From Verrucomicrobiota bacterium (lineage in GTDB: Bacteria > Verrucomicrobiota > Verrucomicrobiia > JADLBR01), in contig JAKQKQ010000246.1 in NCBI GenBank assembly GCA_029560585.1, positions 1 to 64,000 of the forward strand: a stretch of DNA of 64,000 nucleotides, given 5' to 3'. Made by a program: the position numbers and the translations under genes. The notes under the pieces are model-generated. The model saw nothing but the letters and a program-made list of their open reading frames with translations. It had not been told where the DNA came from and ran no database searches. Shown in pieces: positions 24,017 to 47,430 of this stretch; positions within the stretch are counted from its first letter, which is position 1, and each line of letters starts with the position of its first letter.

Positions 24017-24109
24017 TAGTTCGATTAGTACGAATAAGATTGCCCGATTTAGCTCCTGCTGCTTAGCCTGTCCGTTGTGGACGGGATGGTTTTGGTGGGT
24101 ATCCGCTCG

Positions 24110-27100: not shown

Positions 27101-28198
27101 ACCGGGATCGACGAGGCCGCCTCCGGCTACGAGTTCGTGGTCGCCCGCAAGGGCACAAACGTCTGGACCTGGGGCGAGAACCAGGACTATCAGCTTGGCA
27201 CCAATGCCCCCTCCTACCGCGCCAGCCCCGCAAAGGTCGGAGGGGTATCGAACATCGTCGCGGTGGCCGCGGGCGAGAAGCATGCGCTGGCCCTTCGATC
27301 GGACGGCACGGTATGGGCGTGGGGCAGTGGCGCCAACGGTCGGCTCGGCAACGGTGCGACCAGTAACCGCAGCACCCCGGTCCAGGCGAGCGCAGCCGGT
27401 TTTAGCAACGCCATCGCCATTGCCGCGGGCTACGAGCACAGCATGGCCATAACAGCCGATGGTTCCGTGTGGACTTGGGGCAGGAACAACAACGGCCAAC
27501 TCGGTCTTGGAACCAATGACCAGCAACGAACCGTTCCCACCCGCATCCCCGGCTTCAATGTGTTCGACCGGCTCCCAACCGTTTCGATCGCGTGGCCGAC
27601 CAACGCGGTGGCCACCGACCAGGCCGGCGACCTCGTGATTCAGGCGAATGCCACCGACTCAGACGGCACTGTCACAAAGGTCGAGTTCTTCCGCGACGGC
27701 GAAAAGATCGGCGAATCGGTGGCGGCCCCCTTCAACTTCAACTGGACCAACGCCGTCCTCGGACCCTGCGCGCTGACGGCGGTGGCGACCGACGACAAGG
27801 GTCTCTCCGCCACCTCCGCCCCGGTCGCGGTCACTGTCTATTCCGGCGGCGATTCGGATGGCGACGGATTGAGCGACTACGAGGAGGTCGTGGTCCACGG
27901 GACCAACCCCCTCGTGAAGGATTCGAATGGCGACGGCCTGCTCGACGGGGCGGCGGTCCTCGCGGGTTTCGATCCGAAAAGCGACGATCCCGACGGCGAT
28001 GGGGTGACCACGGCGGAGGAACTGGCCGCTGGAACCAACCCCTTCCGCGCCGACACCGACGGCGATGGTCATAACGACGGCGCCGACGCGTTCCCGCTGG
28101 ACCCGAGCCGCAATGAAGCGCTCACCGACGATCCCGGTGACGACACGCCACCGACCATCATCCTCGAGCGGCCCGCCGACGCGGAGCCGGTGCCCTGA
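24110..28198 (+). CDS. Secreted multidomain protein with RCC1, Calx-beta and TSP3 repeats
   Basis: 1362 aa. The start at 24110 gives MRPTRRIITFAGSILLAITT, a Sec signal peptide. Domains seen in order: an N-terminal region with an EF-hand-like DLNSNGVSDVW; further calcium-type DxDxDG repeats (about 365-430); Ig-like domains (about 440-525); a Calx-beta domain (about 687-797); RCC1-type propeller repeats (about 802-1150, recurring WTWG, GSGANGRLGNG); a second Ig-like domain; and thrombospondin type-3 repeats (about 1243-1343). The calcium-binding C-terminus and signal peptide predict a cell-surface or secreted protein. It precedes the RHS gene by 10 bases, so they form one operon. Ligand and substrate unknown. 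Confidence 0.8.
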   Translation: MRPTRRIITFAGSILLAITTFAPPSSGLDLNSNGVSDVWAWHYGVTNMAPSDDLDFDEQDNLLESIAGTDPWDRSSRFETIAQGGPPDSEGSQTNVVVSWWGVMGKRYEVWASHDLLNWEFFDGPFLGTNAALSVSDAIPYPPEGEGMMSLQEPSGDKSIISLGPQPSWYPHGATTNSTGDAATYNFQFVCASVFDNGLCSMTLFDGDRQYRILSNLPIGRIPGTQQWLDRRSGWGAFFLEYGDSWDSYVRYYEIADADKLAAELLGSKTAAYVSEPFDRWPYYSEPKGWVLEFFEWMHNYYEANRDYFAAGQAALEGGTYDLFLMQTAPAPDAVEGGGTMTLNEGGGTSDESRRFYRVHTIASLDEDGDGLDAYEEHLLGTSDSTADGDGDGVPDGEEFIYGLHPTSPQDLDGDWMPDDWEMYHFGTLERTNPPAVFWNSPADGSTIDPGATVYLQASATENASVTLVKFFADGTNVGEDAASPYIVAWSNSVAGAHSLQAQAVFGRGATVTSTPVTVSVAPPDADGDGMADAWEIEWLGGTNAAPTADADGDGLNNLQEYGDGTLPNDFYNGQRPLLSIVSGDRQAANTNTFLPEPLVVRVRDQVGIGLSNAPVTFTIWPAGGLFSTSTNGAPLLATNEVRTAPDGLAQVWLKLPPGSGGLQWITASAFDSNVFLEAFAKSVTNRPTVTVEATDPVSAEPGSNIGVFTISHNGNTFSPLSVVFGMSGTATNGTDYATIASPAVIPAGTNWVRVEVRPTDDSSVEPTETAILTVSNSAAYVVGSPSVATNSILDNEKGGTTGIDGGENFSAVLLYDGTVWTFGADGSGQLGNGTGAGSTNVPAQVPGLSNVVQIACGQYHCLALQIGGRIKSWGDGGSGRLGNNGDASQQSPVFVVDTRLTNAIAVSAGQEHSLALAANGAVWAWGNNGEGELGIGRFSGWEDTPTNSNNGLSSTQISAGRRNSYALKTSALYGCGNNEKGQLTEGDPQSSFASVETGIDEAASGYEFVVARKGTNVWTWGENQDYQLGTNAPSYRASPAKVGGVSNIVAVAAGEKHALALRSDGTVWAWGSGANGRLGNGATSNRSTPVQASAAGFSNAIAIAAGYEHSMAITADGSVWTWGRNNNGQLGLGTNDQQRTVPTRIPGFNVFDRLPTVSIAWPTNAVATDQAGDLVIQANATDSDGTVTKVEFFRDGEKIGESVAAPFNFNWTNAVLGPCALTAVATDDKGLSATSAPVAVTVYSGGDSDGDGLSDYEEVVVHGTNPLVKDSNGDGLLDGAAVLAGFDPKSDDPDGDGVTTAEELAAGTNPFRADTDGDGHNDGADAFPLDPSRNEALTDDPGDDTPPTIILERPADAEPVP

Positions 28199-28208
28199 TT
28201 TTCAGAAG

Positions 28209-31200
28209 ATGGCCAAGCCAGCAACGAACTCCATGAATCGCGACTCCCAAACCCATCGGCCCTTCTCAGTTCATAGAAACCATTTGATACCGGTGGCCGC
28301 CGTCGCAGGCGTTCTAACCCAGGCGGCCTGGTTCTGGGACGCCCCCAAGAAAACCCCGCCGCCGGCCACGGACGCCGACATCGAACGGCTGGAGCGCTCC
28401 GATCCGCCGCACCTACGTGGGCAGCGCACCGCCCCCTACGGCGGAACCAACAGCCTCGTGAGCCTGCTCCCGGTCCGGCTGGATCGGGTTCCCACCGAGC
28501 GCGAACTGCGCATGGCCGGGCAACTCGGCGGCCCCCTGTGCCCGACCGGCCCCGCCGAGCCGCTGCTGATGCGCGACCCGTCCGCGCGCAGAAGGCAGGA
28601 GCAGGACAACCTCGGGTTCGGCAAGGCCATCAACCTCTGGAACGCGCACCGCTATAAAGAGGCGGTCGCCGCCTTCGGGGATCATCGCGCCAAATTCGCC
28701 GATGGCCCCTGGTCCGCAGAGAGCGACCTGCATTTGGGCTGCGAGGCCCAGTTCACCGGCCGCTGGAACGAGGCGGCGTCGCGTTTCGATTCGATCCTGG
28801 CGCGCACCAGACCGGGCGAGCCCATGTACCAGAAGGCGGGCCTGCGCAAGGCCACCCTGCTGGTGGAACGCGGCCGCATCCGCGATGCGCTGAAGCTGTT
28901 CTCGGACCTGCTTTCGACCGAGGATTCATGGCAGCGGCGGACGTATTTCCAGGGATGGATCCGCCGCCTCAACCACTATCAGGGATACCTGGCCGAACTC
29001 CACGACTGCGGTGCCGAGTGCGTGGCCTCGCTGCTGCGCGGCAGGGGCCGGTCCGACGAGGCGCGGGCCTTGAGGACCCGGCCCGGCGACACCGAGGAGG
29101 GCATGACCGTCGCCGCGCTCCAGGCGCTGTGCGCCCAGACCGGACTCGCGCCGCTGGCCGTCAATGTCATGGGTGTGCCCTTGGCCAGGATGCCCCGGCC
29201 CTTCATCGCGCACTACCGCGACGCGCACTTCGTCGTGGTGGGCGATGCGCTGCCCTCGGGCGAGTCGCGCGTGTTTGATCCGCGGCTCGGCCACGAGACG
29301 CTCTTGACCGAGGGAGAGATCCTCCGACAATTCAGCGGCATCGCGATCACCCTCGATGGCCGGTTTCCGCCGGGCGCCGCGCTGGCCAGCGCCGAGGAGA
29401 CATCGATGCCGGGGGGCTGCTGCGGCCTGGCCAAGCCCGAGGACAAGCTCGGCCCAAGGTGTCCGCGCTCATGCCGCGGACTGCCCGGTTGGGAGGTCAA
29501 TCCGGCCAACGTCAATCTGGTGGTCATGGACACCCCCCTCTGGCACGAGAGCGGGCTCGGCCCCGAGGTGGCGTTCGAGCTGACCTACAACAGCCTCGAT
29601 AGCCACGACGCCGGCGGCGGCATCCAGCCGGTCGGCAACAAGTGGACCCTCAATTACACATCCTATGCCACGGAGAATCCCGGCGGGGACGTCATCATCG
29701 TCATGCCCGACGGCCGGCGCGACCAGTACCGCCCGAACGGCGTCGGCGGCTACCTTCCCGCCCTAGAGCTGGCCGGCATGGACCTGCGCAAGACGGCCGA
29801 CTACACATTCGAGCTGACCCTGCCCGACGGTTCCGTTTACCTCTACGGCGTGCAGGTCGCCACAAACTCTCTCCTCCTCGAAATCCGCGACCCCCACGGC
29901 AACGCGGTGCGCGTCGACCATGACGCGAACGGCTCGATCACCAACGTGGCCGACGCGCTGGGGCGCAACTTCGCCGTCGCCTTCGCCGGTGGCCATGTCA
30001 CCAACATCTCCGACCCCTTCGGCCGCAACGCCACGTTCGCTTATGACGCGTTGGGAAACCTCACCAACCAGACCGACATGGGCGGCCAGAGCTATGGCTA
30101 CACGTACACGGGCGGGGGCTCTAACCTGTTCCTGGCGTCGATCCGCATCCCGACCGGAACCACATCCTTCTTCACCGAGCCCGCCGACGGCCTGCCCAAT
30201 GGCTCCAACGCCTACCCTCCCATTGGCGGAAAGATGTGGCAGAACTCTCGGCTCACGGTCACCGACCCGATGGGCAATAAGGAGGAATACTATTACAACG
30301 GCTACAACCGCGCGAGCTGGCACCGCGACCGCCGCCAGATGGCCTCAACCCTGCCCGCCCTATCCGCGCCCAAGACCGAGTTCCGGTACGCGGTCCGAGA
30401 GGGCAGGGCCCTGCTCTCTGAGATCCGGTACGCGGATGGCACCAAAAAGAGCTTCGGGTCCTTCGACGCCGACGGAAACGCCACCTTCGCCACCGACGAG
30501 GCCAACCTCACTACGCAGTTCACCTATAATGACCTCGGCCGATTAACCTCGATGAGCGACCCGCGCGGCCTGCTGCGGGAGTGGCAGTACGCGCCCAATG
30601 GCATGGATGTGACCAACGTGATCGAGGACGGCGCCAGCGTGGCCCGGCTCCGCTATAACGACCGCCGGCAGATCGTCGAAACCCGCGACGCCCTCGACCA
30701 CGCCACCGCCTACGCCTACGAGACGAACGGCGTCTTGCTGGCGATCACCAACGCCCTGAACGAAGTGACGGTGTTCGAACGCGACGCGCTCTTCCGCGTC
30801 ACCAACGTGGTCCACGCCGGCCAGAGCATCGCCTCCTTTACCTACGATCTCAAAGACCGGGTGGAGAGGCGCACCGATGCCTCCGGCCGCGTCCGCATTT
30901 TCACACATGACGGCCTGGACCGGGTCACCCAGCAGATGTGGGGCGACGGCAGCTTCGAGGATTACATCTGGGACTGCTGCAGCATCGGCTCGGTCCGCGA
31001 CCGGCTGGGCCGCTGGAGGTTCTTCCGCCACGACGCGAACAAGCGCCTCGTCGCGGTCGAGGAGCCCGACGCCAGCCTGGCCCAGATGGGCTATGACCCG
31101 GAGGGCAACCTCGAGTGGCTTCGCGACCCCAACGGCAAATTCACCCGTTGGGAGTACGATGCCAGAAACCGTCCACGCCGCCGCATCTTCGCCGACGATA

Positions 31201-33284
31201 GCACGATCGAGTACCTCTACGAGGCACGCGGGTTGCTCTCGGCGCAGATCAACGCCCGGGGGCAGACCAACGCCTTCGCCTATGACGGATCGGGCAACCT
31301 CACCAGCCAGACCGCCCCCGGCATCGCGCCCGTAACTTTCGCCTACGACCTGCGCGGCCGACGCACCAACATGGTGGATAGGATCGGCGCCACCGCCTAC
31401 GCCCACGACGACGCGGGCCGGCTCCTGAGCGTCGATGGCCCGTGGGAAGACGACACCATCACGTATGCTTACGACGCATTGAACCGACTCACCAACCGCG
31501 AGATCAACGGCGCCGCCATGCGGTGGCAGTTCGACGGCCAGGGCCGCGTCGAGGCCGTGGATAATCCCCTCGGGCATTTCGATCACCAGTACGAAACTGC
31601 CGCCTCTCCGCTTCTCACCCGCGTCGCCGCCCCCTCCGGCCTTGAGATTCTCTACGGCTATGAGGATGTGCTCGGCGACCGCCGACTCTCGGCCATCACG
31701 AATTTGGTGAACAGCGCCGTGGTCTCCGCTTTCGGATACAAGTACGACCAGGCGGATCGGATCAAAGAATGGGCCGTCGCCCAGGCATCCGCGGCAACCA
31801 CCATGATCGTCGGGCTGGACTCCCTCGATCGCCTCCGGTCGGTGGTCGCCCGCGATTCCGGCACCGGCACTCTCCTTCAAGACTACGCCTACACCTATGA
31901 CCCGGCAGGGAACCGCCTGACCGAGAAGATCGGCTCGTCTCTATCGAAAGCGACGCACAACGACCTGAACCAGATCACGGGCATCAGCCGGGGTTCGACC
32001 GTCGAGTTCGGCGGCTCCGTGAATGAGCCCGCGAACGTCAAGGTTAATGACCAGCCCGCCTCGGCGTGGTCAAACAACCTCTTTTCCGCAGCCGTCACCA
32101 ACCTCTCCCAGGGCAGCAACACCGTGACGATCACGGCCGCGGACGGCAGTGGAAACACGGCCACGAATTACTACAGGGTTGTCGTCGACCCCACCGCGTC
32201 CATCGCCCTGGGATATGATCCCGATGGGAACATGCTGACCAATGTCGTGGCGGGAACCACGCACATCTACTTTTGGGACTCGCGCAACCGACTTTCCCGA
32301 ATCACACGCAACAGCGATGTGACCGAGTTCGCCTATGACGGCCTGGACCGCCGCGTTGAAATCACGGAACTCACCGGCACGACTACGAATGCCGTGAGAC
32401 GATTCCTGTGGGCCGGATTCCAGATCGCTGAGGAGAGGGACTACGCCAACACCTCCCGCAAGCGATATTATCCCCAAGGCTTCCAAACAGAAAACGGACA
32501 AACGGAAACCTTCCTCCATACGAAGGATCATCTCGGCTCGATTCGCGAAGTGATCGACAGCGCTAGCACAATCCGTGCCACTTACGCCTATGACCCCTGG
32601 GGCCGAGTAACGAAGATCTCGGGGAACATCGATTCCGATTTCCTGTTCACGCAGCATTTGTACCACCCGCCCTCTGCGCTGTACCTCGCACCATACCGTG
32701 CTTATTCGACCTCACTCGGCCGATGGCTAAGCAGAGATCCAGTTCATGAACTGGGTGGTCTCAATCTCTACGCCTACGTGGCGAACAACCCACTGCTATG
32801 GTTTGACCCTCTCGGTCTTGACCGGTTTTTTGGTCGAACGCAATGTGGTAAGAGATTCGACTTTGAAGCTAACAGCCTTCGCGAACTTGAAACCGGCCTT
32901 CAGCAAAACATCGCGGGCGATCTTATAGCACAAGGCACATTACGTGCACATGGCAATTCAGTCGGATCTGATAACGTCAACGACACGCCCGATTTCCTTC
33001 CTAGGCTGGCGGATATTCTCGATCCCTATGTAGATGGCGAGTCCCACTTGACTTTGGATGGGTGCAAGACGGCGGGGGAACGCCCGGGAATGTTTGATCA
33101 GGATTATGGCATCGATCGTACCGAAGGCAGCATGGCCCGGGAACTGAGCAAGCTACTGCCAGACACAGACGTGACAGGCTATATGGGAGACAGGACAGGA
33201 TTCCGCATAACAGGCGGCGTTAACGGCCCTCATTTTGGATCTGCTGGATCGGCGACTTTCGTAAACGGCGCCCGAGTTCCATGA
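28209..33284 (+). CDS. RHS/YD-repeat toxin with C39-like domain and polymorphic C-terminal tip
   Basis: 1691 aa. Starts MAKPATNSMNRDSQTHRPFS 10 bases after the previous stop. Domains: a hydrophobic segment (about 26-40), TPR-like helices (about 140-240), a C39/papain-like segment (DCGAECVASLL with Cys, and HFVVVGD with His, about 265-380), many YD repeats (about 460-1450), and the RHS core ending NLYAYVANN..DPLGL near 1535. The last about 155 residues form a different tip. It has His1581 in LRAHGNS and Cys1619 in LDGCKTAGE, resembling clan CD cysteine peptidases. The tip is noticeably more AT-rich. It is followed with ATGA overlap by a putative immunity gene. Confidence 0.85.
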   Translation: MAKPATNSMNRDSQTHRPFSVHRNHLIPVAAVAGVLTQAAWFWDAPKKTPPPATDADIERLERSDPPHLRGQRTAPYGGTNSLVSLLPVRLDRVPTERELRMAGQLGGPLCPTGPAEPLLMRDPSARRRQEQDNLGFGKAINLWNAHRYKEAVAAFGDHRAKFADGPWSAESDLHLGCEAQFTGRWNEAASRFDSILARTRPGEPMYQKAGLRKATLLVERGRIRDALKLFSDLLSTEDSWQRRTYFQGWIRRLNHYQGYLAELHDCGAECVASLLRGRGRSDEARALRTRPGDTEEGMTVAALQALCAQTGLAPLAVNVMGVPLARMPRPFIAHYRDAHFVVVGDALPSGESRVFDPRLGHETLLTEGEILRQFSGIAITLDGRFPPGAALASAEETSMPGGCCGLAKPEDKLGPRCPRSCRGLPGWEVNPANVNLVVMDTPLWHESGLGPEVAFELTYNSLDSHDAGGGIQPVGNKWTLNYTSYATENPGGDVIIVMPDGRRDQYRPNGVGGYLPALELAGMDLRKTADYTFELTLPDGSVYLYGVQVATNSLLLEIRDPHGNAVRVDHDANGSITNVADALGRNFAVAFAGGHVTNISDPFGRNATFAYDALGNLTNQTDMGGQSYGYTYTGGGSNLFLASIRIPTGTTSFFTEPADGLPNGSNAYPPIGGKMWQNSRLTVTDPMGNKEEYYYNGYNRASWHRDRRQMASTLPALSAPKTEFRYAVREGRALLSEIRYADGTKKSFGSFDADGNATFATDEANLTTQFTYNDLGRLTSMSDPRGLLREWQYAPNGMDVTNVIEDGASVARLRYNDRRQIVETRDALDHATAYAYETNGVLLAITNALNEVTVFERDALFRVTNVVHAGQSIASFTYDLKDRVERRTDASGRVRIFTHDGLDRVTQQMWGDGSFEDYIWDCCSIGSVRDRLGRWRFFRHDANKRLVAVEEPDASLAQMGYDPEGNLEWLRDPNGKFTRWEYDARNRPRRRIFADDSTIEYLYEARGLLSAQINARGQTNAFAYDGSGNLTSQTAPGIAPVTFAYDLRGRRTNMVDRIGATAYAHDDAGRLLSVDGPWEDDTITYAYDALNRLTNREINGAAMRWQFDGQGRVEAVDNPLGHFDHQYETAASPLLTRVAAPSGLEILYGYEDVLGDRRLSAITNLVNSAVVSAFGYKYDQADRIKEWAVAQASAATTMIVGLDSLDRLRSVVARDSGTGTLLQDYAYTYDPAGNRLTEKIGSSLSKATHNDLNQITGISRGSTVEFGGSVNEPANVKVNDQPASAWSNNLFSAAVTNLSQGSNTVTITAADGSGNTATNYYRVVVDPTASIALGYDPDGNMLTNVVAGTTHIYFWDSRNRLSRITRNSDVTEFAYDGLDRRVEITELTGTTTNAVRRFLWAGFQIAEERDYANTSRKRYYPQGFQTENGQTETFLHTKDHLGSIREVIDSASTIRATYAYDPWGRVTKISGNIDSDFLFTQHLYHPPSALYLAPYRAYSTSLGRWLSRDPVHELGGLNLYAYVANNPLLWFDPLGLDRFFGRTQCGKRFDFEANSLRELETGLQQNIAGDLIAQGTLRAHGNSVGSDNVNDTPDFLPRLADILDPYVDGESHLTLDGCKTAGERPGMFDQDYGIDRTEGSMARELSKLLPDTDVTGYMGDRTGFRITGGVNGPHFGSAGSATFVNGARVP

Positions 33285-38730: not shown

Positions 38731-40659
38731 TTATTGTTTTGTTCTGACGTAGAGACCGCCCTCCGACTTGCTGACCTGGTTGGTGGCGGTGAGTTTTTCG
38801 AGGATCCGATAGAAGGAGGCGCGGCTCAGCTCGTGGACCTCCTGGACCGCGGCGAGCCATGCCTTCGGCGTCATGCCGTCGGGGCTGAGGCGTTCGAGCA
38901 CCTCGGTTGCGGGCACGGCCTCGGGCCTGCCGGCCCTCTTGAGCTTGCCGGCGTCCAGAGAGACCGGCTGGAAGAGCGGGAAGTGCCAGCGCAGCACGAA
39001 GGGCTCCAGGTGCGGGAAGTTGCGCAGGGTGGCCTCGACCGTGTAGCAGAAGGGTTCCTCGTGCGGGGTGAGGGTGAGGATCGAATCCGGATCGCGGGCG
39101 AAGACGCCGGAGCCACCGATCCTGTCCATGGCTTGTTTGCCCGACTGGTTGCCCTTGGAGAAGTGGGCGCCGAAGACGACGGCGGCGCCGGTCTGGGTCG
39201 CGAGCCTCTCGACCTCGTTGAGCAGCTCGGCGACATCCCCGGCCCGGTTCTCGTCGCGCCCGCCGAGGCCCTTGTAGATCGGGTCGATGATGATGAGCCC
39301 GTAGCCGGCGTGCCGCACCCGCGCGATGATCTCCGGCATCAGCGAATCCAGCGATGCGGCGTGGCCGCGGAGGTTCCAGACGTCGAGCGTTCCGGGGATG
39401 ACCGGGCAGATCTTGGCGGTGACGACGTCGCCCAGGCGCCGGGCGTAGAAGAAGGGCTGGATCTCGAAGTTGATGTAGAGCACGCGGGCCTGGGTCGTCT
39501 CCAGGCCCCACCATGGCGAACCCGAGGCCACCGAGGCTGCGAGGTCGGTGAGCGCCCAGGTCTTGTAGCTCTTGGATCCGCCGCCGATCACCATCTTGGA
39601 TCCCTGGTGGAGCACGCCGGCCACCAGCACGGGCGGCTCTGGCTCATCGGCGTGATGGGCCAGCAGTTCGCTGGCGTCGACTATCCTCGGCAGCCGGGAA
39701 TTGGCCTCCGCCTCCCACTCAGACCATGATCTGGCCCCGATGTTCGTTGCCAGCAGGCGCTGCTGTGCCGCACCACGAGCGACGCCCGCGAGCCGGCTGA
39801 AACGCGAGGGATTCTTGTTCTTGGCGCAGGGCGCGCAATCGGCGAAGAACTCGTGCAGGGCCGCGACACGCTCGCGGTACTCTTCCGCGCCCTTCGCGTC
39901 CACGCGCACCCATGCGTGGAGCGAGCGGCCACCGGAGTTGATCACCGCCGTGCACGGAATCCTCGAGTGGCGGATGATGGGCCACTGCCTCTCGATGGGC
40001 AGGTCGTCCCACTCGAGGAGCGCGTGGCGGAAGGCGGCCACGTCCGAATCGGTCTTGCCGCCGGCGAGCATCGGGTTGATCCGCACGAATACGCCCGCGC
40101 CCGGTTCCCTGGGCCATGGGTCTATGCCGGATGCCAGCAGCGCCAGCCATTCATCGCGCGTGCGCGTCTGGCCCGCACCGGCGGGATGATCCCGGCCGTC
40201 CTCGCCCATTGAACCAACGCAGACAGCGACCTGCTCCTCGGGCCCGTATGCCGTTTCAAAATGCAGGTAGGTGGCCATGAGGCCCTCTCTTGCCTCCGGC
40301 AGAGCCGCGGCAGCGGCCGGTTCGGAGAAACGCCTTGCGATGGCCTTCGCTGGCCGGGGATGGCCATCGCCGTTTCGTTGGGGGATCGCTGGCGCGGTCA
40401 CTTGCCCGCCGCGATCCATGAAACGGTGGCGGATGGGCTCGCGGCGGCTGCCCTTGAACGCGGAACGGATCGCCTTGCGGGCCTCGGCCTCGGAGAGCCC
40501 GTCTCGCATCGCGCACGGGACCAGCGCGCGCTCCGTGTCGCCGAGCGTGGCGATCGCGTCGCGAAACTGGCAGGCGGCGGCAAAGAGCGCCGCGTTGCGC
40601 TCGCCCTCGGGCGTCCGTTCGGCGAGGTACCGCTGGGTGGATGCCGGCAGCTCAGCCAT
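38731..40659 (-). CDS. Primase/RepA-like replicative ATPase
   Basis: 642 aa from the ATG at 40659 (MAELPASTQRYLAERTPEGE), overlapping the previous gene by 8 bases. The first about 310 residues look like a primase-type N-terminal part (about 140-300 contains GIDPWPREPGAGVFVRINPM, INSGGRSLHAWVRVD and CAPCAKNKNPSRFSRLAGVA, as in phage/plasmid primases). Residues about 355-520 are a RepA/AAA_25-type RecA-like ATPase: GGGSKSYKT (Walker A), YINFE, LIIIDPIY (Walker B), FGAHFSKG. The C-terminus is a winged-helix (LSRASFYRILEKLTATNQVS). It would prime and unwind phage DNA. Confidence 0.8.
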   Translation of the reverse strand: MAELPASTQRYLAERTPEGERNAALFAAACQFRDAIATLGDTERALVPCAMRDGLSEAEARKAIRSAFKGSRREPIRHRFMDRGGQVTAPAIPQRNGDGHPRPAKAIARRFSEPAAAAALPEAREGLMATYLHFETAYGPEEQVAVCVGSMGEDGRDHPAGAGQTRTRDEWLALLASGIDPWPREPGAGVFVRINPMLAGGKTDSDVAAFRHALLEWDDLPIERQWPIIRHSRIPCTAVINSGGRSLHAWVRVDAKGAEEYRERVAALHEFFADCAPCAKNKNPSRFSRLAGVARGAAQQRLLATNIGARSWSEWEAEANSRLPRIVDASELLAHHADEPEPPVLVAGVLHQGSKMVIGGGSKSYKTWALTDLAASVASGSPWWGLETTQARVLYINFEIQPFFYARRLGDVVTAKICPVIPGTLDVWNLRGHAASLDSLMPEIIARVRHAGYGLIIIDPIYKGLGGRDENRAGDVAELLNEVERLATQTGAAVVFGAHFSKGNQSGKQAMDRIGGSGVFARDPDSILTLTPHEEPFCYTVEATLRNFPHLEPFVLRWHFPLFQPVSLDAGKLKRAGRPEAVPATEVLERLSPDGMTPKAWLAAVQEVHELSRASFYRILEKLTATNQVSKSEGGLYVRTKQ

Positions 40660-40837
40660 GCGCCTCCTCGGGCCACTGGTCCTGCCGCGCGCGATCGGCC
40701 AGGCGGGCGGCCACGGTGCGGTACTCCTCGATGAGCCGCCCGGCCTCTTCGGTGCGCTCGATTTGCGCCAGCGTGTCGCCGTCGTCATCGTCCGGGCGAC
40801 GCGTGCGCACCATGAGCAACCACTGCGCCCGCGTCAT
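40652..40837 (-). CDS. Small early phage protein (61 aa)
   Basis: A fully overlapped junction gene: ATGA with the helicase stop and an 8-base overlap with the primase start, which supports translation. MTRAQWLLMVRTRRPDDDDG leads to a helical charged tail. No known family. Confidence 0.6.
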   Translation of the reverse strand: MTRAQWLLMVRTRRPDDDDGDTLAQIERTEEAGRLIEEYRTVAARLADRARQDQWPEEAHG

Positions 40838-42375
40838 GCCGCCACCCCCGAGGTCGCGGGACGAGCGCCCCAGCGGGAGTTCAGAAATTCGTTCGCCTCT
40901 TGAAAGGTGGCGGTCTCCGGACTGGGGTGGCCGAGCTGGCGGAGGTACCGCAGCTGCCTGGGCGTGGCCAGCCCGAGCCGCCGCCGGGTCATGAGGACAT
41001 CGATGATCGCCGAGGCGTGGCCCCGGTCTCGGATCGAGCCCGCGTCGAAGCCAGCCTTGTCCAGCATCCTCGCCTGTCCCTCGGAGACCGGCTTCCCGTG
41101 CCAGCCCATCGTGGGCGCGTACTCGGCCAGGGGGATGTCGTGCAGCGAGAGGCAGAACTCGACCGCGTCGATCGTGCGGCCCTTCCGCCTAGAGTTGGCG
41201 GCCAGCTCGGCGCGGAGCCTCTCCTCGCGCTGCGCGCAGACCTCCAGGCTCAGGTCCTCGAGGTCGCGCTCTGCGGCCCCGCCGGCCTCGAGCGCCCCGA
41301 TCATCTCTTCGGCGATCTCTTCGGTCGACGCGACCAGGTGCGCGGGCCGGATGAGGCTGTGCTTCTCGTGCAGCCACAGGAAATCGAGCAAGAGCAGGTT
41401 GGTCTTTCCCGGCGCGATCCGGGTCCCGCGGCCCACCATCTGCGAGAACAGGGGCCGGGATTGCGTCGGTCGAAGGACCACCACGCAATCGATTGCCGGA
41501 TCGTCGTAGCCCTCGGTCAGAAGCATCGCGTTGCAGAGGACGTCAAATTCGCGATCCGCGAAGCGCCGCAGCACCTCGCGGCGTCCGGACATCTGGCCGT
41601 CCACGTGCTCGGCGGATAGCCCCTCGGCGCGGCAGATCTCGCGGAACATCACGCTCGTGCGGATGAGCGGCAGGAAAACCAGCGTCTTGCGCGCGGCGGC
41701 GTGCTCTCGGATGGCGCGGGCGATCTGGCGGAGGTAGGGCTCGACCGCGTCGCCCAGGTCGGCCTCGGAATAGTCCCCGGCCACCTTGCGCACCGCGGAC
41801 AGATCGATCTGCACCGGGATCGCCTTGCACGCGATGGGCGAGAGATATCCCTGGCGGATCAGTTCGAAGAGCGAGACCTCGAAGGCGATGTTCTCGAAGA
41901 AGGCACCGAGGTTCCGCGCGTCTGTGCGATCAGGCGAAGCGGTAATTCCCAGAACCTTCGCGTGCCCCTCGAAGCGGGAGAGCACCTTCCGGTAGGTGTT
42001 CGCCAGGACGTGGTGGGCCTCATCGACGATGACCAGATCGAAATGGTCCCGCGGCCAATCGTCTTTGCGGGCCACCATGGTCTGGATCGAGGCCACCACG
42101 ATCGGGGCCTGCCGCGACGCGCGGAATTGCGCCTTCTCAAGATCGGGCTCGATGCCGATCGCGGTTCGGAACTTGTCGATGGCCTGGGTGAGGAGTTCCT
42201 CGCGGTGCGCGAGGAACAGAACGCGCCCGCCCGCTTCGACGACATCCATCGAGACCTTCGCCGCGATGATCGTCTTGCCCGAACCGGTCGGAAGGACGGC
42301 CAATTGTTTGGCGAACTCCTTCCAGCCGGCGCCGATCGCCTCGCAGCTTTCGATCTGGTAGGGACGCAGCTCCAT
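40834..42375 (-). CDS. DEAD/DEAH-box (SF2) helicase
   Basis: 513 aa from 42375 (MELRPYQIESCEAIGAGWKE). Motif Q-like start, motif I PTGSGKT (29-35), Ia LAHREELLTQ, motif II DEAHH, motif III ITASPDRTD, motif V TEGYDDPAIDC and motif VI QMVGRGTR. The C-terminal 170 residues are helical and carry no clear nuclease residues. It resembles phage SF2 helicases used for replication initiation or recombination. It starts one base after the excisionase-like stop. Confidence 0.9.
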   Translation of the reverse strand: MELRPYQIESCEAIGAGWKEFAKQLAVLPTGSGKTIIAAKVSMDVVEAGGRVLFLAHREELLTQAIDKFRTAIGIEPDLEKAQFRASRQAPIVVASIQTMVARKDDWPRDHFDLVIVDEAHHVLANTYRKVLSRFEGHAKVLGITASPDRTDARNLGAFFENIAFEVSLFELIRQGYLSPIACKAIPVQIDLSAVRKVAGDYSEADLGDAVEPYLRQIARAIREHAAARKTLVFLPLIRTSVMFREICRAEGLSAEHVDGQMSGRREVLRRFADREFDVLCNAMLLTEGYDDPAIDCVVVLRPTQSRPLFSQMVGRGTRIAPGKTNLLLLDFLWLHEKHSLIRPAHLVASTEEIAEEMIGALEAGGAAERDLEDLSLEVCAQREERLRAELAANSRRKGRTIDAVEFCLSLHDIPLAEYAPTMGWHGKPVSEGQARMLDKAGFDAGSIRDRGHASAIIDVLMTRRRLGLATPRQLRYLRQLGHPSPETATFQEANEFLNSRWGARPATSGVAA

Positions 42376-42376
42376 G

Positions 42377-42574
42377 TCAGGACATCCCCCTGGCCGGCTT
42401 GAAGCAGCGGCGGATGTGCTCCCGGAGTTCGGACTCCGGGATGAAGATGCGGCTGCGCGGCCCGCCGGGGCGGACATGTCCGATCTCCCGGCGGGCGCAC
42501 ATCGCGTAGAGCTTGCTCTGGCTCAGGCCGAGCCTCTTGGCGGCCTCCTGCAAGCGCAGCAGGGGATTGTCCAT
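42377..42574 (-). CDS. Excisionase-like / AlpA-like helix-turn-helix protein (65 aa)
   Basis: MDNPLLRLQEAAKRLGLSQS then KLYAMCARREIGHVRPGGPR and RIFIPESELREHIRR. This is the MerR/HTH_17 pattern of phage excisionases. It is encoded inside the early operon, not next to integrase, so it may also control transcription. Confidence 0.75.
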   Translation of the reverse strand: MDNPLLRLQEAAKRLGLSQSKLYAMCARREIGHVRPGGPRSRIFIPESELREHIRRCFKPARGMS

Positions 42575-42585
42575 GGCTGCCTCCC

Positions 42586-42990
42586 TCAGAAGGGGATGTC
42601 GTCCCGGGCCTTGTCGGCGATCGCGATGGACTCCTTGTCGCAGAGCCAGGCATCGACGCAGTTGTAGACCTTGGACGGATCCTTGAGCCCCGGCTTCGTG
42701 CCAATGCGCACGCGCCCCACGGCGTTGAGGCACTTGTCGGCGGTGAGTTCGACGAACTCCCCCTTGGCCGGAGCCAGGCCGCAGGCCTTGAGAAACGTGT
42801 CGATCTTCCAGCCCGCGTTCTCTGTGAACACGAGTTGGTCGAAGACGATCACTTCGTTGATGTTCAGCTTTAAATCGATCTTCGGGTTGCCGGCGTTGCT
42901 CGTGCCCTCGCGGGCTTCCGCGACGATGGCGATGTAGTTGCCGGGCTCGAGCAGCTGGAAGCCGCCCCGGTCCTGGAATTGCACTCTCAT
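42586..42990 (-). CDS. DUF669-type phage protein, probable single-strand DNA-binding helper
   Basis: 134 aa from the ATG at 42990, with GGAG just ahead. Begins MRVQFQDRGGFQLLEPGNYI, with a beta-rich OB-like middle (NPKIDLKLNINEVIVFDQLV) and a helical C-terminus, as in DUF669. Phages often encode DUF669 next to a Sak4-type ATPase; the pair acts in recombination with single-strand DNA. Activity not tested here. Confidence 0.7.
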   Translation of the reverse strand: MRVQFQDRGGFQLLEPGNYIAIVAEAREGTSNAGNPKIDLKLNINEVIVFDQLVFTENAGWKIDTFLKACGLAPAKGEFVELTADKCLNAVGRVRIGTKPGLKDPSKVYNCVDAWLCDKESIAIADKARDDIPF

Positions 42991-43022
42991 TTTGATGTCT
43001 CCTCTGTTGTTGGTGGTTGGGT

Positions 43023-44009
43023 TCAGGCGGCGGACTGCTGCACCGCACGCAGGAATGCCGCCGGCCGTTTGAGCGCCTTGCGGATGTGTGTGACGTCCAT
43101 CGCGGAGATGTCCGCGCCGGGCGCGAGCCATCCCTCTTTCGTCATCCAGGCGAGCGCCTGCTCGCGGACCGGCGCCACGAGATCCTCGAACTTCTTGCGG
43201 TCGGGGGATTCATCACCCTCAGGATTCCCCGCCTCTGGGACTGCCGGCGCATGGGATTCCCCGATCCTGGAATTCCCAGCCTCGGGCGTTCCCAGCTTCG
43301 TTGGCTTGACCGCTTCCGGCGCAGCCGTTGTCGCGCCCTCGAGCCACGCGCCGACCTGGCGGCCGATGTCCTCGGTCACCTGGAAGATCCGGTCGGTGAA
43401 TATCCCGGTGCGGTCTTTGCTTACCTGCGCGGTGTGGTCGTGGGCGATGTCGAAGACGATCGTGAACTCGTACTCGCCCTCGTCCCGGAACACGGGCGCG
43501 AGCCCCACCTTGCGCGGCACCTGCTTGCCTTTCATGTCCTGTTCCAGGACGTACTCGAACTTGGACCGGAGGCAGGCGACCAGGTGGATGTCGCTCTGCA
43601 GGATCGAGCCCAGGCCGGCGTCGTACTTCTTGCCCGCCTGGTTCCAGTTGGTGAAGGAGTTGCCGCCCCGCGAATCGAGCGAGCCCTTGAATTCGAGCAC
43701 GCCCTTCCAGAAGTGGGACGCGCTATCGATGATGAGGCACCCGTAGCCGGCCGCGACCGCCGCATTGATGGCTTCGACGAACTTTTCGGCCTCGAATGGC
43801 GGCTCGATGTCCAGCACGTCGAACCGGTAGCGGTCCGAGTAGAGCGATGCGGACCGGTTCTCGGTGTCGATCACCGCGATCCTGCCCTTTGGGCCCACCA
43901 GCCCGGCGGCCAGCCGCAGGGCCGACATCGTTTTCCCGGAGCCGGGAGGGCCGGTCACGGCGAGCTTGAGTTTGGCGCGGCGCCGCTGCGCCTGTTGGAA
44001 TTGCATCAT
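43023..44009 (-). CDS. Sak4-like RecA-fold ATPase (single-strand annealing/recombination)
   Basis: 328 aa, ATG at 44009 overlapping the nuclease stop. Walker A TGPPGSGKT at 19-27, Walker B-like YGCLIIDSASHFW (about 88-100). Central ATPase resembles Sak4 annealases, which promote pairing of single strands with SSB. The linker at about 230-270 has repeated PEAGN and the C-terminal 50 residues form a helical domain. The DNA for the linker repeats GGATTCCCCG-like words. Next to it are a DUF669 protein and a nuclease, the usual Sak4 module. Confidence 0.8.
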   Translation of the reverse strand: MMQFQQAQRRRAKLKLAVTGPPGSGKTMSALRLAAGLVGPKGRIAVIDTENRSASLYSDRYRFDVLDIEPPFEAEKFVEAINAAVAAGYGCLIIDSASHFWKGVLEFKGSLDSRGGNSFTNWNQAGKKYDAGLGSILQSDIHLVACLRSKFEYVLEQDMKGKQVPRKVGLAPVFRDEGEYEFTIVFDIAHDHTAQVSKDRTGIFTDRIFQVTEDIGRQVGAWLEGATTAAPEAVKPTKLGTPEAGNSRIGESHAPAVPEAGNPEGDESPDRKKFEDLVAPVREQALAWMTKEGWLAPGADISAMDVTHIRKALKRPAAFLRAVQQSAA

Positions 44010-44470
44010 GGGGTTCTCCCTTGGGGCGTGGTTCTCCTGCGCCTCGCGCGCCCGCCCCTGCGCGCGAAACTGAAATTGATCCCCCTTGCCTCCCTGATCG
44101 CCGAGAGCATCTCCCCGAGGTACTCGATGGTCACCATCTCCCCCGTGAGCCGGAACACGCGCCAGCCAAGCGTCCCGGCCGCATTGTACTTCACGCAGTC
44201 ATCGCGGAATCCGGTCCCCCGCGTGTGCCTGCCGCCCGTCCACGTTCCGCCCTCCAGCTCGAATGCTGCTTTCGCATCGACCCAGGCCCGGTCGATCCGC
44301 CACCGTCGCCCGATCGCCGCCGCGAACCGGTGCTCGCGCTCCAGCCGCGGTCCTCCGATGGCCCGCCAGACCAGGTCGAACCGGCGCTCGAGGGCGGATC
44401 CCATCAGTCGGTTTTCCCCATCGGCAGCTGGCGCCGGCCGGAAGCTGGCCCCGATGACCGGCGCCCTCAT
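44006..44470 (-). CDS. PD-(D/E)XK-like phage endonuclease, possible Holliday-junction resolvase
   Basis: 154 aa. The core has RAWVDAKAAFELEGGTWTGG, a D then E-x-E-GG arrangement, then RHTRGTGFRDDCVKYNAAGT and GWRVFRLTG, a pattern of phage very-short-patch or DUF559-type nucleases. Such enzymes resolve replication intermediates before packaging. The first 20 residues may be disordered. Confidence 0.7.
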   Translation of the reverse strand: MRAPVIGASFRPAPAADGENRLMGSALERRFDLVWRAIGGPRLEREHRFAAAIGRRWRIDRAWVDAKAAFELEGGTWTGGRHTRGTGFRDDCVKYNAAGTLGWRVFRLTGEMVTIEYLGEMLSAIREARGINFSFARRGGRARRRRTTPQGRTP

Positions 44471-44670
44471 TTTGGGCCGCCTCCCGGGTGCCGGGAAAAC
44501 CTGTGCGCGATCCCGATCTTTCGGTGGAGGTCCCCGTTGAGGACCCGCTCGATGTATTCGGAGAGGGACCAGCCGCTCTCTTTCGCCCGCCGGATCGCCC
44601 CCCCGATGATCGCGCCCGACATGTAGAGGCTCACCGCCCTGCCTTTTCGCCCGCTCTTCGGCCGTCCCAT
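44467..44670 (-). CDS. Ribbon-helix-helix regulator A (67 aa), first gene of early operon
   Basis: Begins MGRPKSGRKGRAVSLYMSGA; the C-terminal KESGWSLSEYIERVLNGDLH is a ribbon-helix-helix second helix. Its ATG is 9 bases past a -10 box, so the mRNA has almost no leader. It faces another RHH gene (44751) across 80 bases packed with operator-like palindromes. It is the first gene of the leftward replication operon and so may act as the Cro-like half of a switch. It overlaps the nuclease start. Confidence 0.7.
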   Translation of the reverse strand: MGRPKSGRKGRAVSLYMSGAIIGGAIRRAKESGWSLSEYIERVLNGDLHRKIGIAHRFSRHPGGGPK

Positions 44671-44750
44671 GATGTCGGATAGTTATCCGATAATTATCCG
44701 CCCGTCAACCGCCGTTTGACATGGTCGGATTTTTATCGTATAAAAAACCT
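44671..44750. promoter_or_regulatory. Divergent promoters and operators between two RHH genes
   Basis: Rightward: TTGACA (44716-44721), 17 bases, TATAAA (44739-44744); the next gene's ATG is at 44751, where transcription should start. Leftward: TTGACG (complement of 44703-44708), 17 bases, TAACTA (complement of 44680-44685). Operators: CGGATA-GT-TATCCG (44676-44689), GATAATTATC (44689-44698) and the imperfect CGGATTTTTATCG (44726-44738). They cover the leftward -10 and spacer and the rightward spacer, so one protein could shut both promoters. Confidence 0.75.
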
Positions 44751-44930
44751 ATGGGCGCACCCCGAAAAAAACCCTGGGCCAGGAAGAAGAAGGTCGGCGT
44801 GACGATCCGCGCCGACATCCTCGACGCCGCTCAGGCGAACGCGGACACCGACGGCATCAGCCTCTCCCAGTACATCGAGGACCAGCTCGTCAGGGTCGCC
44901 GCCCCGAAGAAGGGCAGGATCAGGGATTGA
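44751..44930 (+). CDS. Ribbon-helix-helix regulator B (59 aa), probably leaderless
   Basis: MGAPRKKPWARKKKVGVTIR, then a helix ILDAAQANADTDGISLSQYI forming the RHH fold, then a Lys-rich tail. The ATG at 44751 lies 7 bases after a consensus -10, which predicts a leaderless transcript. An in-frame ATG at 44721 is inside the promoter and rejected. Likely the repressor-like half of the switch. Its 3' end overlaps the opposing RadC-like gene by 11 bases. Confidence 0.7.
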   Translation: MGAPRKKPWARKKKVGVTIRADILDAAQANADTDGISLSQYIEDQLVRVAAPKKGRIRD

Positions 44931-45462
44931 CCGGCCTATGCCGCCCCTCCGGCGGCGCGATTGACGACGCCCTCCACACGGTCTCCTCGCCGCGATCGAT
45001 CTGCCGGCAGACGCGGCAGAAAAATCCGCTCCAGCCGATCACCAGGTGCTCGTGGAGGCAGATCCCGAGCGACCGGCACGCCCGGCGCATCCGGCGCGTG
45101 AATTCGATGTCCTGGGGGCTGGGCCGGGGATCGCCGTGCGGATGATTGTGGATCAGGATGATGCCGCGCGAATTCGTCAGGAACGCCGGCCGCAATACCT
45201 CCGCCGGGCTCACCGAGATCCCGGCGCTGCCGCCGGTCGCCACCTGGGCGAAGTGCCGGATCCGGTTGGCGACATCCAGGCTGACCGTGAAGAGCGCCTC
45301 GTGCGGGAAATTCGCCATCCAATCGAACATCCCCGCGACGGCGGGGAATGACGTCGCCTCCGCCCCGACGATCCGCCCCTGGATCGCCGATCTCCTCAGC
45401 GTCACCTCGACCCTCGGTACCTGCGCCCCGATCTCCGAAAGCATCGCATCTGTCTGTGTCAT
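44920..45462 (-). CDS. RadC-like JAMM domain protein (180 aa)
   Basis: Start at 45462 (MTQTDAMLSEIGAQVPRVEV) with AAAGGAGAG five bases ahead. The JAMM motif HNHPHGDPRPSPQD is intact, followed by HEHLVIGWSGFFCRVC. Unlike the radC at 23327 it lacks the N-terminal helix-hairpin-helix, as in many plasmid RadC-like proteins. It sits between the switch and the third RHH gene and may act in repair or anti-restriction. That role is inferred from context. Confidence 0.8.
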   Translation of the reverse strand: MTQTDAMLSEIGAQVPRVEVTLRRSAIQGRIVGAEATSFPAVAGMFDWMANFPHEALFTVSLDVANRIRHFAQVATGGSAGISVSPAEVLRPAFLTNSRGIILIHNHPHGDPRPSPQDIEFTRRMRRACRSLGICLHEHLVIGWSGFFCRVCRQIDRGEETVWRASSIAPPEGRHRPVNP

Positions 45463-45611
45463 GTGACTCTCCTTTGTGTTGTGCTTGACCCAAGATGCTT
45501 GCAGAGCGAGACTGATACAACCGTATTGTTGCAATACATTGTGTTGCACCGAAGCCGTTGTAGAGTAGACACTTGCAGACGACAGATTTTAGAAGAAAGG
45601 GATTATTCACA
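45463..45611. promoter_or_regulatory. Divergent control region with palindrome, radC-like / RHH-3
   Basis: AT-richer, 149 bases. GTATTG-TTG-CAATAC at 45523-45537 is a perfect 6-bp inverted repeat with 3-base spacer; further TTGTTG/CAAC words flank it (GATACAACC before, ACATTGTGTTGC after). TTGCAC at about 45544 with TAGACA 16 bases later may be the rightward promoter. Confidence 0.45.
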
Positions 45612-46106
45612 ATGCCAAAAACGAGTGCGAAATCGAAGAAAACGCCACAGAAGAAGATCGGCGCCCTGAACCTGCGCTGTTCCGAGACTTTGCGGGGAGC
45701 CGTCCAGCGCGCCGCCGATGCCGAGCGGACATCGCTCGTGGATTGGGTCACCCGCGCCCTGGCCCATGCCCTCGCCGAACGCGGCATCTCCCTGCCACCC
45801 GACTGTCCGGAATATCAGCCCGAGGAGGCACCGGCAGCGACATTGAACGAGGCCCTCGAGCGAGAGGCGACCGCCCTTCTGCCCGAGGCGCGGGCCAAGA
45901 CGCGCCCTTGGGCCGATGCCATCGCCCGAGAGGAGTGGGCGATAATCGGCAAGGCCTTACAGGAGATCGACGACCCGGCGCTATGGAACGATTTCCTTCA
46001 GTCGTGGTCGATTCCCGGACGCACCGCGCGACAGAAGCTCCACGCGCTCAAATTCCGGTTGCAGGCCTATCGCGAGCGGCTCCCGCGGCAGGGGAGCGAC
46101 TATTAA
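45612..46106 (+). CDS. RHH-type DNA-binding protein C (164 aa)
   Basis: MPKTSAKSKKTPQKKIGALN is a basic tail; LRCSETLRGAVQRAADAERT with SLVDWVTRALAHAL is an RHH/MetJ-Arc helix pair. The C-terminal 90 residues are helical and acidic. An SD (AAAGGG) lies 10 bases before the ATG at 45612. It converges on the integrase gene. It may regulate integration or the radC-like gene. Confidence 0.6.
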   Translation: MPKTSAKSKKTPQKKIGALNLRCSETLRGAVQRAADAERTSLVDWVTRALAHALAERGISLPPDCPEYQPEEAPAATLNEALEREATALLPEARAKTRPWADAIAREEWAIIGKALQEIDDPALWNDFLQSWSIPGRTARQKLHALKFRLQAYRERLPRQGSDY

Positions 46107-46128: not shown

Positions 46129-47430
46129 CTATCGGGCCCTCGATAGCGGCACCACGTTGGAGGCCGCGCCCTCCGGCCTGATCGAGAACCACGCCTTTCC
46201 TTCCTCTGGTGTGCGGAGTTCGAGATAGGAATGCCGGATGATCCGCTCGGAGTTGCCCGCCTCCAGCGCCACCTGCGAGAGATTCTGTGTCACGGCGGTG
46301 CGGTAGCTGATGAATGAATCCCGCAGCACGTCGTGGGGCCATTCCAGCCCGATGGCCTTGGCCAGGGCGGTGACGCAGCGCCAGGTGCGCGTGGTGCAGA
46401 TGTGGCCGCGCCCGGCCCGGAAGGGGGCGAGCCATTCGGCCAGGTTGGGCTGGATCGGGATCAGGCGCCGCGAGGCGGTCTTGGCCTTGTGCTTGGCCAC
46501 CTCGATCACCCCGCGCTTCCACTGGATGTCGGACCACTCGAGACGGCCGATCTCCATCGGGCGAACGCCGGCAAAACCCCCGATCGCGATGAAGGGCACG
46601 AGATCGGGCCGTGGCGCGATCGCGGGCCTGCCGCGCCTGGCGGCAACGCCGTGGGCCGCCGCATTCAATAGCCGCGACATCTCAGCGGGGGAGAAAACCC
46701 GGATGCGCTTGCCAGGGTCTTTCACCCGTTTGACGAGGGCCGCCTCGACCTCCCGGTCCCGCGGCAGATGGCCCCGCATCCGCGCGTAATGGAACAGGGT
46801 CAGGATATCGGTCCGGTAATTGTTCCATGTCTTGGGCTTGAGTTTCTTGATCCGCCCGAGCGCCTCCTCGATCATGTGCGCGGTGATGCCCTGGATCGGC
46901 GCCGGGAATCGCCCGGCGAACCACCGGAGCTTGTAGCCCAGCGAACGCAGATAGACGTCGGCGAGCCCGGCCTCCGCCCGGTCGCGCAAAATCTCCTCGA
47001 CGAGTTCGGGCACCGGCTTGGACGGAAGCTCCTGGGCGTGCTTCTCCTTCCACCACCTCGCAACCTGGATCAGCGACGCGGGCTGAACCAGTTTCCATGC
47101 CTCCGCGTATTCCTGGGAAGCGACCTCCAGCGGGATGCCGGTCGGCCGCACCGCCTCCACCGAAAGCGAGTAGCGCTCCCGGTCCGCCCCCCGGAAATCC
47201 GCCAGGCCGGCCTTCCCCGCAGAGATCTCGCGGGCGCGCTGCTTGGCGGCATCCGTGGCCTCCTCGAGCGTCGCGCGCACCAGCCGCTTTCGCTGGCCCG
47301 CCTGGCGCCACGCCGCAGTGAAATGGCGTTCGCCGGTGCGATAGATCAGCACGCGGACCGAATCGACCTTCACCTCGACCGGCCACTTGGTTCGCTTCTT
47401 CCGGGAGTTCTCGGTCTCCGGGACTTCCAT
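46129..47430 (-). CDS. int: Tyrosine recombinase / phage integrase
   Basis: 433 aa. Catalytic residues visible: Arg in FAGVRPMEIGRLEWSD, Lys in VAKHKAKT, the HxxR box WPHDVLRDSFISYR, a second His in ERIIRHSY, and Tyr in HSYLEL, in the order R-K-H-R-H-Y. The N-terminal about 210 residues hold arm-type and core-binding helices (KPKTWNNYRTDILTLFHYAR). It joins the phage and chromosome at the attachment site, expected just beyond its 5' end (about 47431-47500). It lies at the right end of the element. Confidence 0.9.
   Translation of the reverse strand: MEVPETENSRKKRTKWPVEVKVDSVRVLIYRTGERHFTAAWRQAGQRKRLVRATLEEATDAAKQRAREISAGKAGLADFRGADRERYSLSVEAVRPTGIPLEVASQEYAEAWKLVQPASLIQVARWWKEKHAQELPSKPVPELVEEILRDRAEAGLADVYLRSLGYKLRWFAGRFPAPIQGITAHMIEEALGRIKKLKPKTWNNYRTDILTLFHYARMRGHLPRDREVEAALVKRVKDPGKRIRVFSPAEMSRLLNAAAHGVAARRGRPAIAPRPDLVPFIAIGGFAGVRPMEIGRLEWSDIQWKRGVIEVAKHKAKTASRRLIPIQPNLAEWLAPFRAGRGHICTTRTWRCVTALAKAIGLEWPHDVLRDSFISYRTAVTQNLSQVALEAGNSERIIRHSYLELRTPEEGKAWFSIRPEGAASNVVPLSRAR

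Follow-up and report, generated by a model that had tools for sequence, protein, structure and literature searches.

Two divergent RHH genes as a candidate CI/Cro-like switch in a verrucomicrobial prophage

Can two small RHH-type proteins, encoded on both sides of an 80-bp region, control the decision of a temperate phage, and do their messages begin at the start codon? The question is raised by a window of 64,000 nt, the whole stretch of DNA that we have analyzed, which corresponds to C278 of a 7.06-Mb genome. Most of what is known about lysis/lysogeny control comes from HTH repressors. In the window, two small RHH-type genes, RHH1 and RHH2, diverge from an 80-bp intergenic region (starts at 44670 on the minus strand and 44751 on the plus strand), as a preliminary description of the sequence had indicated. 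With a probability of about two in three, we consider this region to be the CI/Cro-like control switch of a temperate phage, with paralogous RHH repressors and a leaderless RHH2 mRNA. The coordinates of the features are given in Table 1.

Table 1. Positions of genes, predicted promoters and candidate operators in the window.
Feature	Position	Strand	Remarks
Early operon	38731..44009	-	Sak4-like ATPase 43023-44009, DUF669/SSB-like 42586-43131
Early operon, further genes		-	Excisionase-like HTH_17 42377-42574, helicase 40834-42477, primase-like 38731-40788
Next early-operon gene after RHH1	44006..44470	-	phrog_503; VSR-like by our reading
RHH1	44467..44670	-	67 aa, MGRPKSGRKG...; heads the leftward early operon; Cro-like partner in our proposal
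Candidate operator cluster	44674..44700	.	GTCGGATA, TTATCCGA, TTATCCG; over the RHH1 promoter
RHH1 promoter, candidate A	44679..44708	-	TTGACG-18-AACTAT; ends 8 nt before ATG; score 6.4
RHH1 promoter, candidate B	44693..44722	-	ATGTCA-18-GATAAT; ends 22 nt before ATG; score 6.6
RHH2 promoter	44716..44744	+	TTGACA-17-TATAAA; ends 6 nt before ATG; predicted leaderless
Candidate partial operator	44724..44738	.	GTCGGATTTTTATCG; in the spacer of the RHH2 promoter
RHH2	44751..44930	+	59 aa, MGAPRKKPWARKKK...; proposed CI-like partner
RadC-like JAB protein	44920..45462	-	Convergent with RHH2; has a Shine-Dalgarno site
RHH3, larger RHH-type protein	45612..46106	+	Weak HicB-like match
Integrase	46129..47430	-	

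The window holds a prophage of a Verrucomicrobiia host. The phage setting proposed earlier is borne out by genes for terminase, portal, protease, capsid and tape measure, which lie on the minus strand, and by the integrase; the layout of the RHH pair also recurs in other prophages. RHH1 and the next gene of the early operon share an ATGA overlap. This second gene, whose PHROG family has no assigned function, carries a Shine-Dalgarno site. The third RHH-type gene, RHH3, has its own divergent region, 0.7 kb from the RHH1/RHH2 pair. Between the structural and the early genes (24077-33284), the plus strand, opposite to the main strand of the prophage, carries two very long ORFs of 1373 and 1739 aa; the first of them contains RCC1, Ig-like and TSP3 repeats.

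Membership of the pair in the RHH (MetJ/Arc) superfamily is likely rather than proven, since RHH1 has no family match and the structure models are of medium confidence. By itself, RHH1 has no match in Pfam or PHROG. RHH2 has weak Pfam matches to DUF6364/CcdA, and the closest solved sequence relative of its profile is CopG (E 0.0024). Both proteins are paralogues: The profile-profile comparison of RHH1 with RHH2 gives P 1.5e-9. Their models have a mean pLDDT of 68-69, without any assigned strand, and the AF2 model of RHH1 has two helices. RHH proteins prevail among their top Foldseek matches, with a probability of 0.9-1.0 for the first ones but E above 0.05; those of RHH1 are RHH antitoxins and Arc, also with E above 0.05. 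No HTH repressor domain, as in lambda-type CI/Cro, was found in RHH1 or RHH2. The start of RHH1 cannot lie further out, because its reading frame is closed by a stop five codons before the ATG. The RHH2 start at 44751 is backed by C68, another prophage of this genome, where the homologue begins with MGRPKKKP.

Searches of phages, plasmids and IMG/VR with RHH1 alone gave no homologues; with RHH3 or RadC as the query, there was either no match or one to unrelated loci. Further members of the RHH1 family came from the same genome, from the sister genome G001 of the genus and from a degenerate pattern for the conserved tail, for which three of the 24 loci were real. Homologues with the same tail (L.RK.G.AH) are found in C68, in G001 and in three IMG/VR contigs. 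This C-terminal tail, L.RK.G.AH...R in its longer form, is conserved in RHH1 and absent from RHH2, and it stays constant while the DNA-facing strand varies (window 44467-44530; L010 10088-10150; L041 5841-5900).

As antitoxins are among the nearest folds, and the similarity to CcdA, DUF6364 and CopG is weak, RHH1 and RHH2 might be antitoxin-type or plasmid-partition-type regulators, with autoregulation only and no decision function. Three divergent pairs in other genomes (L077, L112 and L115), around which no phage genes were recognized, would fit such a role. We consider it very unlikely, because no toxin partner was recognized beside either gene and the pair persists among loci while its neighbours differ. 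A toxin-antitoxin identity was dropped: There is no adjacent toxin gene in the operon.

The gene order of the window is repeated in C68 and in G001 (JADLBR010000562.1, a Verrucomicrobiia MAG), and the divergent RHH pair is also present in three near-identical IMG/VR contigs. The intergenic region has practically the same length in the three loci of the genus: 80 bp in the window, 79 bp in C68 and 78 bp in G001. Its sequences are unalignable beyond chance (P 0.16-0.92). On the other hand, a stretch of 110 bp upstream of RadC, at a distance of 0.7 kb, has 80-88% identity among the three loci (z 14-22). Unalignable operators on a constant layout suggest the behaviour of an immunity region, in which the scaffold would be kept and the specificity replaced.

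For the promoter search, 100 nt upstream of each start were scored for pairs of -35 and -10 boxes. Lambda cI, lambda cro, P22 arc and P22 mnt served as controls, and the scan recovered the expected promoter for each of them (4/4). The lambda promoters agree with the known ones, and the lambda cI mRNA is leaderless. The P22 promoters agree with the annotation of the record (X01916.1). The RHH2 promoter, with TTGACA at 44716-44721 and TATAAA at 44739-44744, has 11 of the 12 consensus bases, a score reached by 0.3% of dinucleotide shuffles. With a standard 6-nt discriminator after TATAAA, its +1 would fall on the A of the ATG; the earlier claim that a consensus promoter fires into the RHH2 ATG holds in this geometry. 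The RHH1 promoter is ambiguous, with a predicted leader of about 2 or about 16 nt. The "about 2-9 bases" first proposed for RHH1 fit candidate A, and candidate B, with its 22-nt gap, is equally good. No Shine-Dalgarno site was found before RHH1 or RHH2 in the window. The idea of leaderless transcripts for both genes is thus retained for RHH2, whose geometry recurs in the three loci of the genus, and stays ambiguous for RHH1: At least one of the two switch mRNAs probably begins directly at the start codon.

The gap between the -10 box and the ATG, for RHH1 and RHH2 respectively, is 22 (with a nearly equal runner-up at 8) and 6 nt in the window, 5 and 6 nt in C68, and 6 and 8 nt in G001. The top promoter therefore lies 5-8 nt before the ATG in five of the six starts, which gives P 3.2e-6 against dinucleotide shuffles and about 3e-4 by hand from the host rate of 15/105, for a range of 5-8 chosen after the first scan results were seen. 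When 150 nt upstream are scanned, the top promoter of RHH2 in C68 shifts to one 72 nt away. All six RHH starts lack a Shine-Dalgarno site (duplex energies from -3.5 to +2.8 kcal/mol), and RadC has one in all three loci (-9.0, -7.3 and -12.9 kcal/mol).

We have compared these starts with 446 kb of the host, including the window, where genes were called crudely, without a gene finder, and the choice of starts favours Shine-Dalgarno matches. In this sample, 183 of 288 starts match Shine-Dalgarno at 4 bases or more, and 25 of 288 have the leaderless geometry. This geometry is seen in 15 of the 105 starts without a Shine-Dalgarno match and in 10 of the 183 with one. This host may thus use leaderless genes with moderate frequency; given the 15 of 105, the geometry is maybe not special to the switch. 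Outside the genus, no start in L041, L076, L077 and L078 (0/8) has its top promoter at 5-8 nt, while eight pairs found later have 4/16 (counting the first-listed start where two are given); 6/16 starts of these later loci have a Shine-Dalgarno duplex energy below -3.5. The leaderless geometry is thus a trait of the phages of this genus, sporadic elsewhere. We have dropped the idea that divergent RHH pairs are leaderless in general, given 4/24 such starts outside the genus.

The switch might be real and its mRNAs leadered, the -10-like boxes near the ATG being by-products of an AT-rich operator. This alternative bears only on the leaderless part and is compatible with a switch. The equal RHH1 candidate with a leader of about 16 nt and the 25 host starts with the same geometry speak for it. 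We consider it unlikely, since the RHH2 promoter is near consensus, the geometry is found in five of six starts whose sequences are unalignable, and there is no Shine-Dalgarno site to use.

CGGATA/TATCCG is found exactly three times in the 80-bp region, at 44676 (+), 44684 (-) and 44695 (-). The preliminary description placed three such sites over both promoters: The three exact copies exist, all of them on the RHH1 promoter, and that of RHH2 holds only one partial copy, GTCGGAT at 44724-44730, inside GTCGGATTTTTATCG. The candidate operators TTATCCGA and TTATCCG are 11 bp apart. The region is the densest cluster of this hexamer in the 64 kb, where it is not rare (25 copies, 20.4 expected). Three copies of some hexamer in 80 bp have P=0.03 by shuffling, 53 of 1598 real 80-bp segments hold as many, and the repeats of the window alone give P 0.013 at six bases. 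By themselves, these repeats are modest evidence; comparison with other loci makes them convincing.

Hexamers repeated at 11 bp are found in the first four loci (window, C68, G001 and L041), with different hexamers in each, and in five of the 14 divergent RHH loci in all. No other lag from 6 to 30 is found in more than one locus, and none of 1000 shuffled sets reaches five loci at any lag. The repeat is absent from the other nine loci: L076-L078 among the first seven and six of the seven later ones. The repeats of G001 alone are not significant (P 0.16). In C68, G001 and L041, the cluster is on the RHH1 side with a further copy nearer RHH2, as in the window. The fifth locus, L110, has an 11-base tandem: in 4171-4301 (G483), GCGTTATACAT is present twice, directly before the plus-strand RHH gene of the divergent pair. 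Adjacent RHH dimers would be expected to lie one helical turn apart, and Arc half-sites are spaced by 11 bp. PMC2812701, on RHH half-sites, concerns RelB.

Do the two proteins of a pair recognize related DNA? A first search of the phylum gave matches in four of 387 genomes, one of them that of the window; the three genomes outside the genus all hold a divergent RHH pair at the match. In seven pairs, 13 of the 21 DNA-facing strand residues (three per pair) match within pairs, against 0.45 of 3 between pairs. This is reached by 3 of 5040 permutations, as compared with 268 of 5040 for core-facing residues, in tests which, here and below, take no account of kinship among pairs. An earlier test with four pairs was weak (DNA-facing rank 1-2 of 24) and became clear with seven. 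For helix residues, in six pairs, the figure is 28 of 720 permutations.

A search of the class covered 384 genomes. RHH proteins as such are common there, since 223 genomes have a match at E 0.01. A divergent RHH partner is present in 14 of the 30 loci returned; among these 14 are four seeds and a further five loci of the L077 genus. Seven new pairs lie outside that genus (L081, L091, L095, L097, L104, L109 and L110); L109 and L110 were chosen because both of their members were among the matches, and one L110 residue is missing. In these seven pairs, 11 of 21 DNA-facing residues match (7 of 5040 permutations; core-facing, 1316 of 5040). The pair in the window has 0 of 3 such residues in common, so its two proteins may read different sites. 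Arc and Mnt serve different operators, and the contact roles of their strand residues are known. These P22 partners match in 2 of 3 strand residues (Q-N-R and H-N-R) despite their different operators, so residue sharing suggests related sites, not identical ones. Among the wider pairs, L113 (G079) has the same order as the window: exonuclease and RecT on one side, then RHH pair, larger RHH-like gene, integrase. Integrases are found at L076 and L078, RecT and exonuclease at L110, and a helicase at L111.

The proposed switch would work as follows. RHH1, Cro-like at the head of the early operon, and RHH2, its divergent CI-like partner, would be transcribed from back-to-back promoters, whose -35 boxes are 7 bp apart, so that two polymerases would hardly fit at once. 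Over the early promoter, RHH dimers would bind half-sites, of which two are separated by one helical turn (11 bp); in the RHH2 promoter they would bind one weaker site. Once occupied, these sites would shut off the early operon and adjust RHH2. A leaderless mRNA with AUG as its 5' end would be translated into RHH2, and perhaps another one into RHH1; a leaderless RHH2 mRNA would need no Shine-Dalgarno site, and the operator could therefore reach the start codon. This scheme is read from gene order, promoter boxes, the lack of Shine-Dalgarno sites, half-site periodicity, recurrence and operator divergence, all of them sequence features, together with the sharing of DNA-facing residues within pairs of other loci. 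From these we infer binding, mutual repression, the protein which keeps lysogeny and the leaderless 5' ends. Another phage gene in the prophage could hold a further repressor.

The P22 immI region is the nearest known layout: Two homologous RHH genes, mnt and arc, diverge from overlapping promoters (X01916.1). The statement in the preliminary description that the arrangement differs from the HTH switches of model phages overlooks this region, and also PY54. The parts of PMC8022706 and PMC7549136 which deal with the mnt/arc module describe it as secondary. RHH1 and RHH2 might likewise form a secondary module, with the true lysogeny repressor elsewhere, for example RHH3, which has its own divergent region so near. 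This is rather improbable, as RHH1 is followed by a recombination/replication operon and not by an antirepressor gene, no HTH_3 match was found in a 35.8-kb IMG/VR phage record (0/3 records, two of them short fragments), and the RHH3 region is conserved among phages, unlike an immunity region. P22 also differs in other features: Its two mRNAs have leaders of about 20 and 33 nt, each with an annotated ribosome binding site, whereas the window has no Shine-Dalgarno sites and the -10 boxes are mostly 5-8 nt from the ATG. In P22, arc is followed by the antirepressor gene ant, while phrog_503 and replication genes follow RHH1. The P22 module concerns secondary immunity, and the pair in the window has an integrase nearby. 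Membership of the pair in P22 immI was dropped, as there is no ant.

Other systems share part of the features of the primary switch that we propose. CopG, a plasmid copy-number repressor, is related in sequence to RHH2; it is a single repressor and is not known to have a divergent paralogue, unlike the pair described here. The PY54 repressors belong to the HTH family, and the proteins of the window are RHH-type. In the part of PMC4488713 on PY54 cI/cro, both divergent repressor mRNAs are leaderless, as mapped by RACE; here this is predicted from promoter geometry. The mRNAs of lambda cI (PRM) and of the prophage regulator paaR2 start at the AUG, according to the part of PMC8630535 on these genes. 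In our promoter scan, lambda cI has a gap of 6, the same as RHH2; these regulators are HTH proteins, however, and the opposing lambda gene, cro, is leadered (gap 24).

In the open literature searched, we have found no report of an RHH pair as a primary phage switch, nor of leaderless RHH pairs; such absence is weak, since only an open library was covered. The combination of an RHH pair with leaderless messages, its placement at the head of a replication operon and co-varying pairs were not found in the papers searched either. The layout is known in outline from other phages, and this combination appears to be new. More tentatively, and at somewhat less than even odds, there may be a distinct class of switches, common to verrucomicrobial temperate phages and related elements. 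In it, the genes of two paralogous RHH repressors would diverge from a region of about 76-200 bp, and the DNA-reading strand residues of both proteins would co-vary as the operator is replaced, so that a single scaffold could serve many immunity specificities. In one genus, neither mRNA would have a leader, and operator, promoter and start codon would be fused.

If the proposal is true, the switch, made only of two RHH proteins of 60-70 residues with leaderless messages, would belong to the smallest decision circuits. As a natural series, the 14 divergent pairs may show by which strand residues RHH proteins specify DNA, and in what way an operator continues to be shared by two repressors. The switch would also give first handles on phage regulation in a little-studied bacterial phylum.

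The conserved region between RadC and RHH3 (45463-45572 in the window, 11152-11261 in L010 and 6707-6816 in L019) is shared by prophages which are otherwise diverged. It is perhaps an operator, a promoter or an attachment region, and it carries TGATACAACCGTATTGTTGCAATACATTG-like elements.
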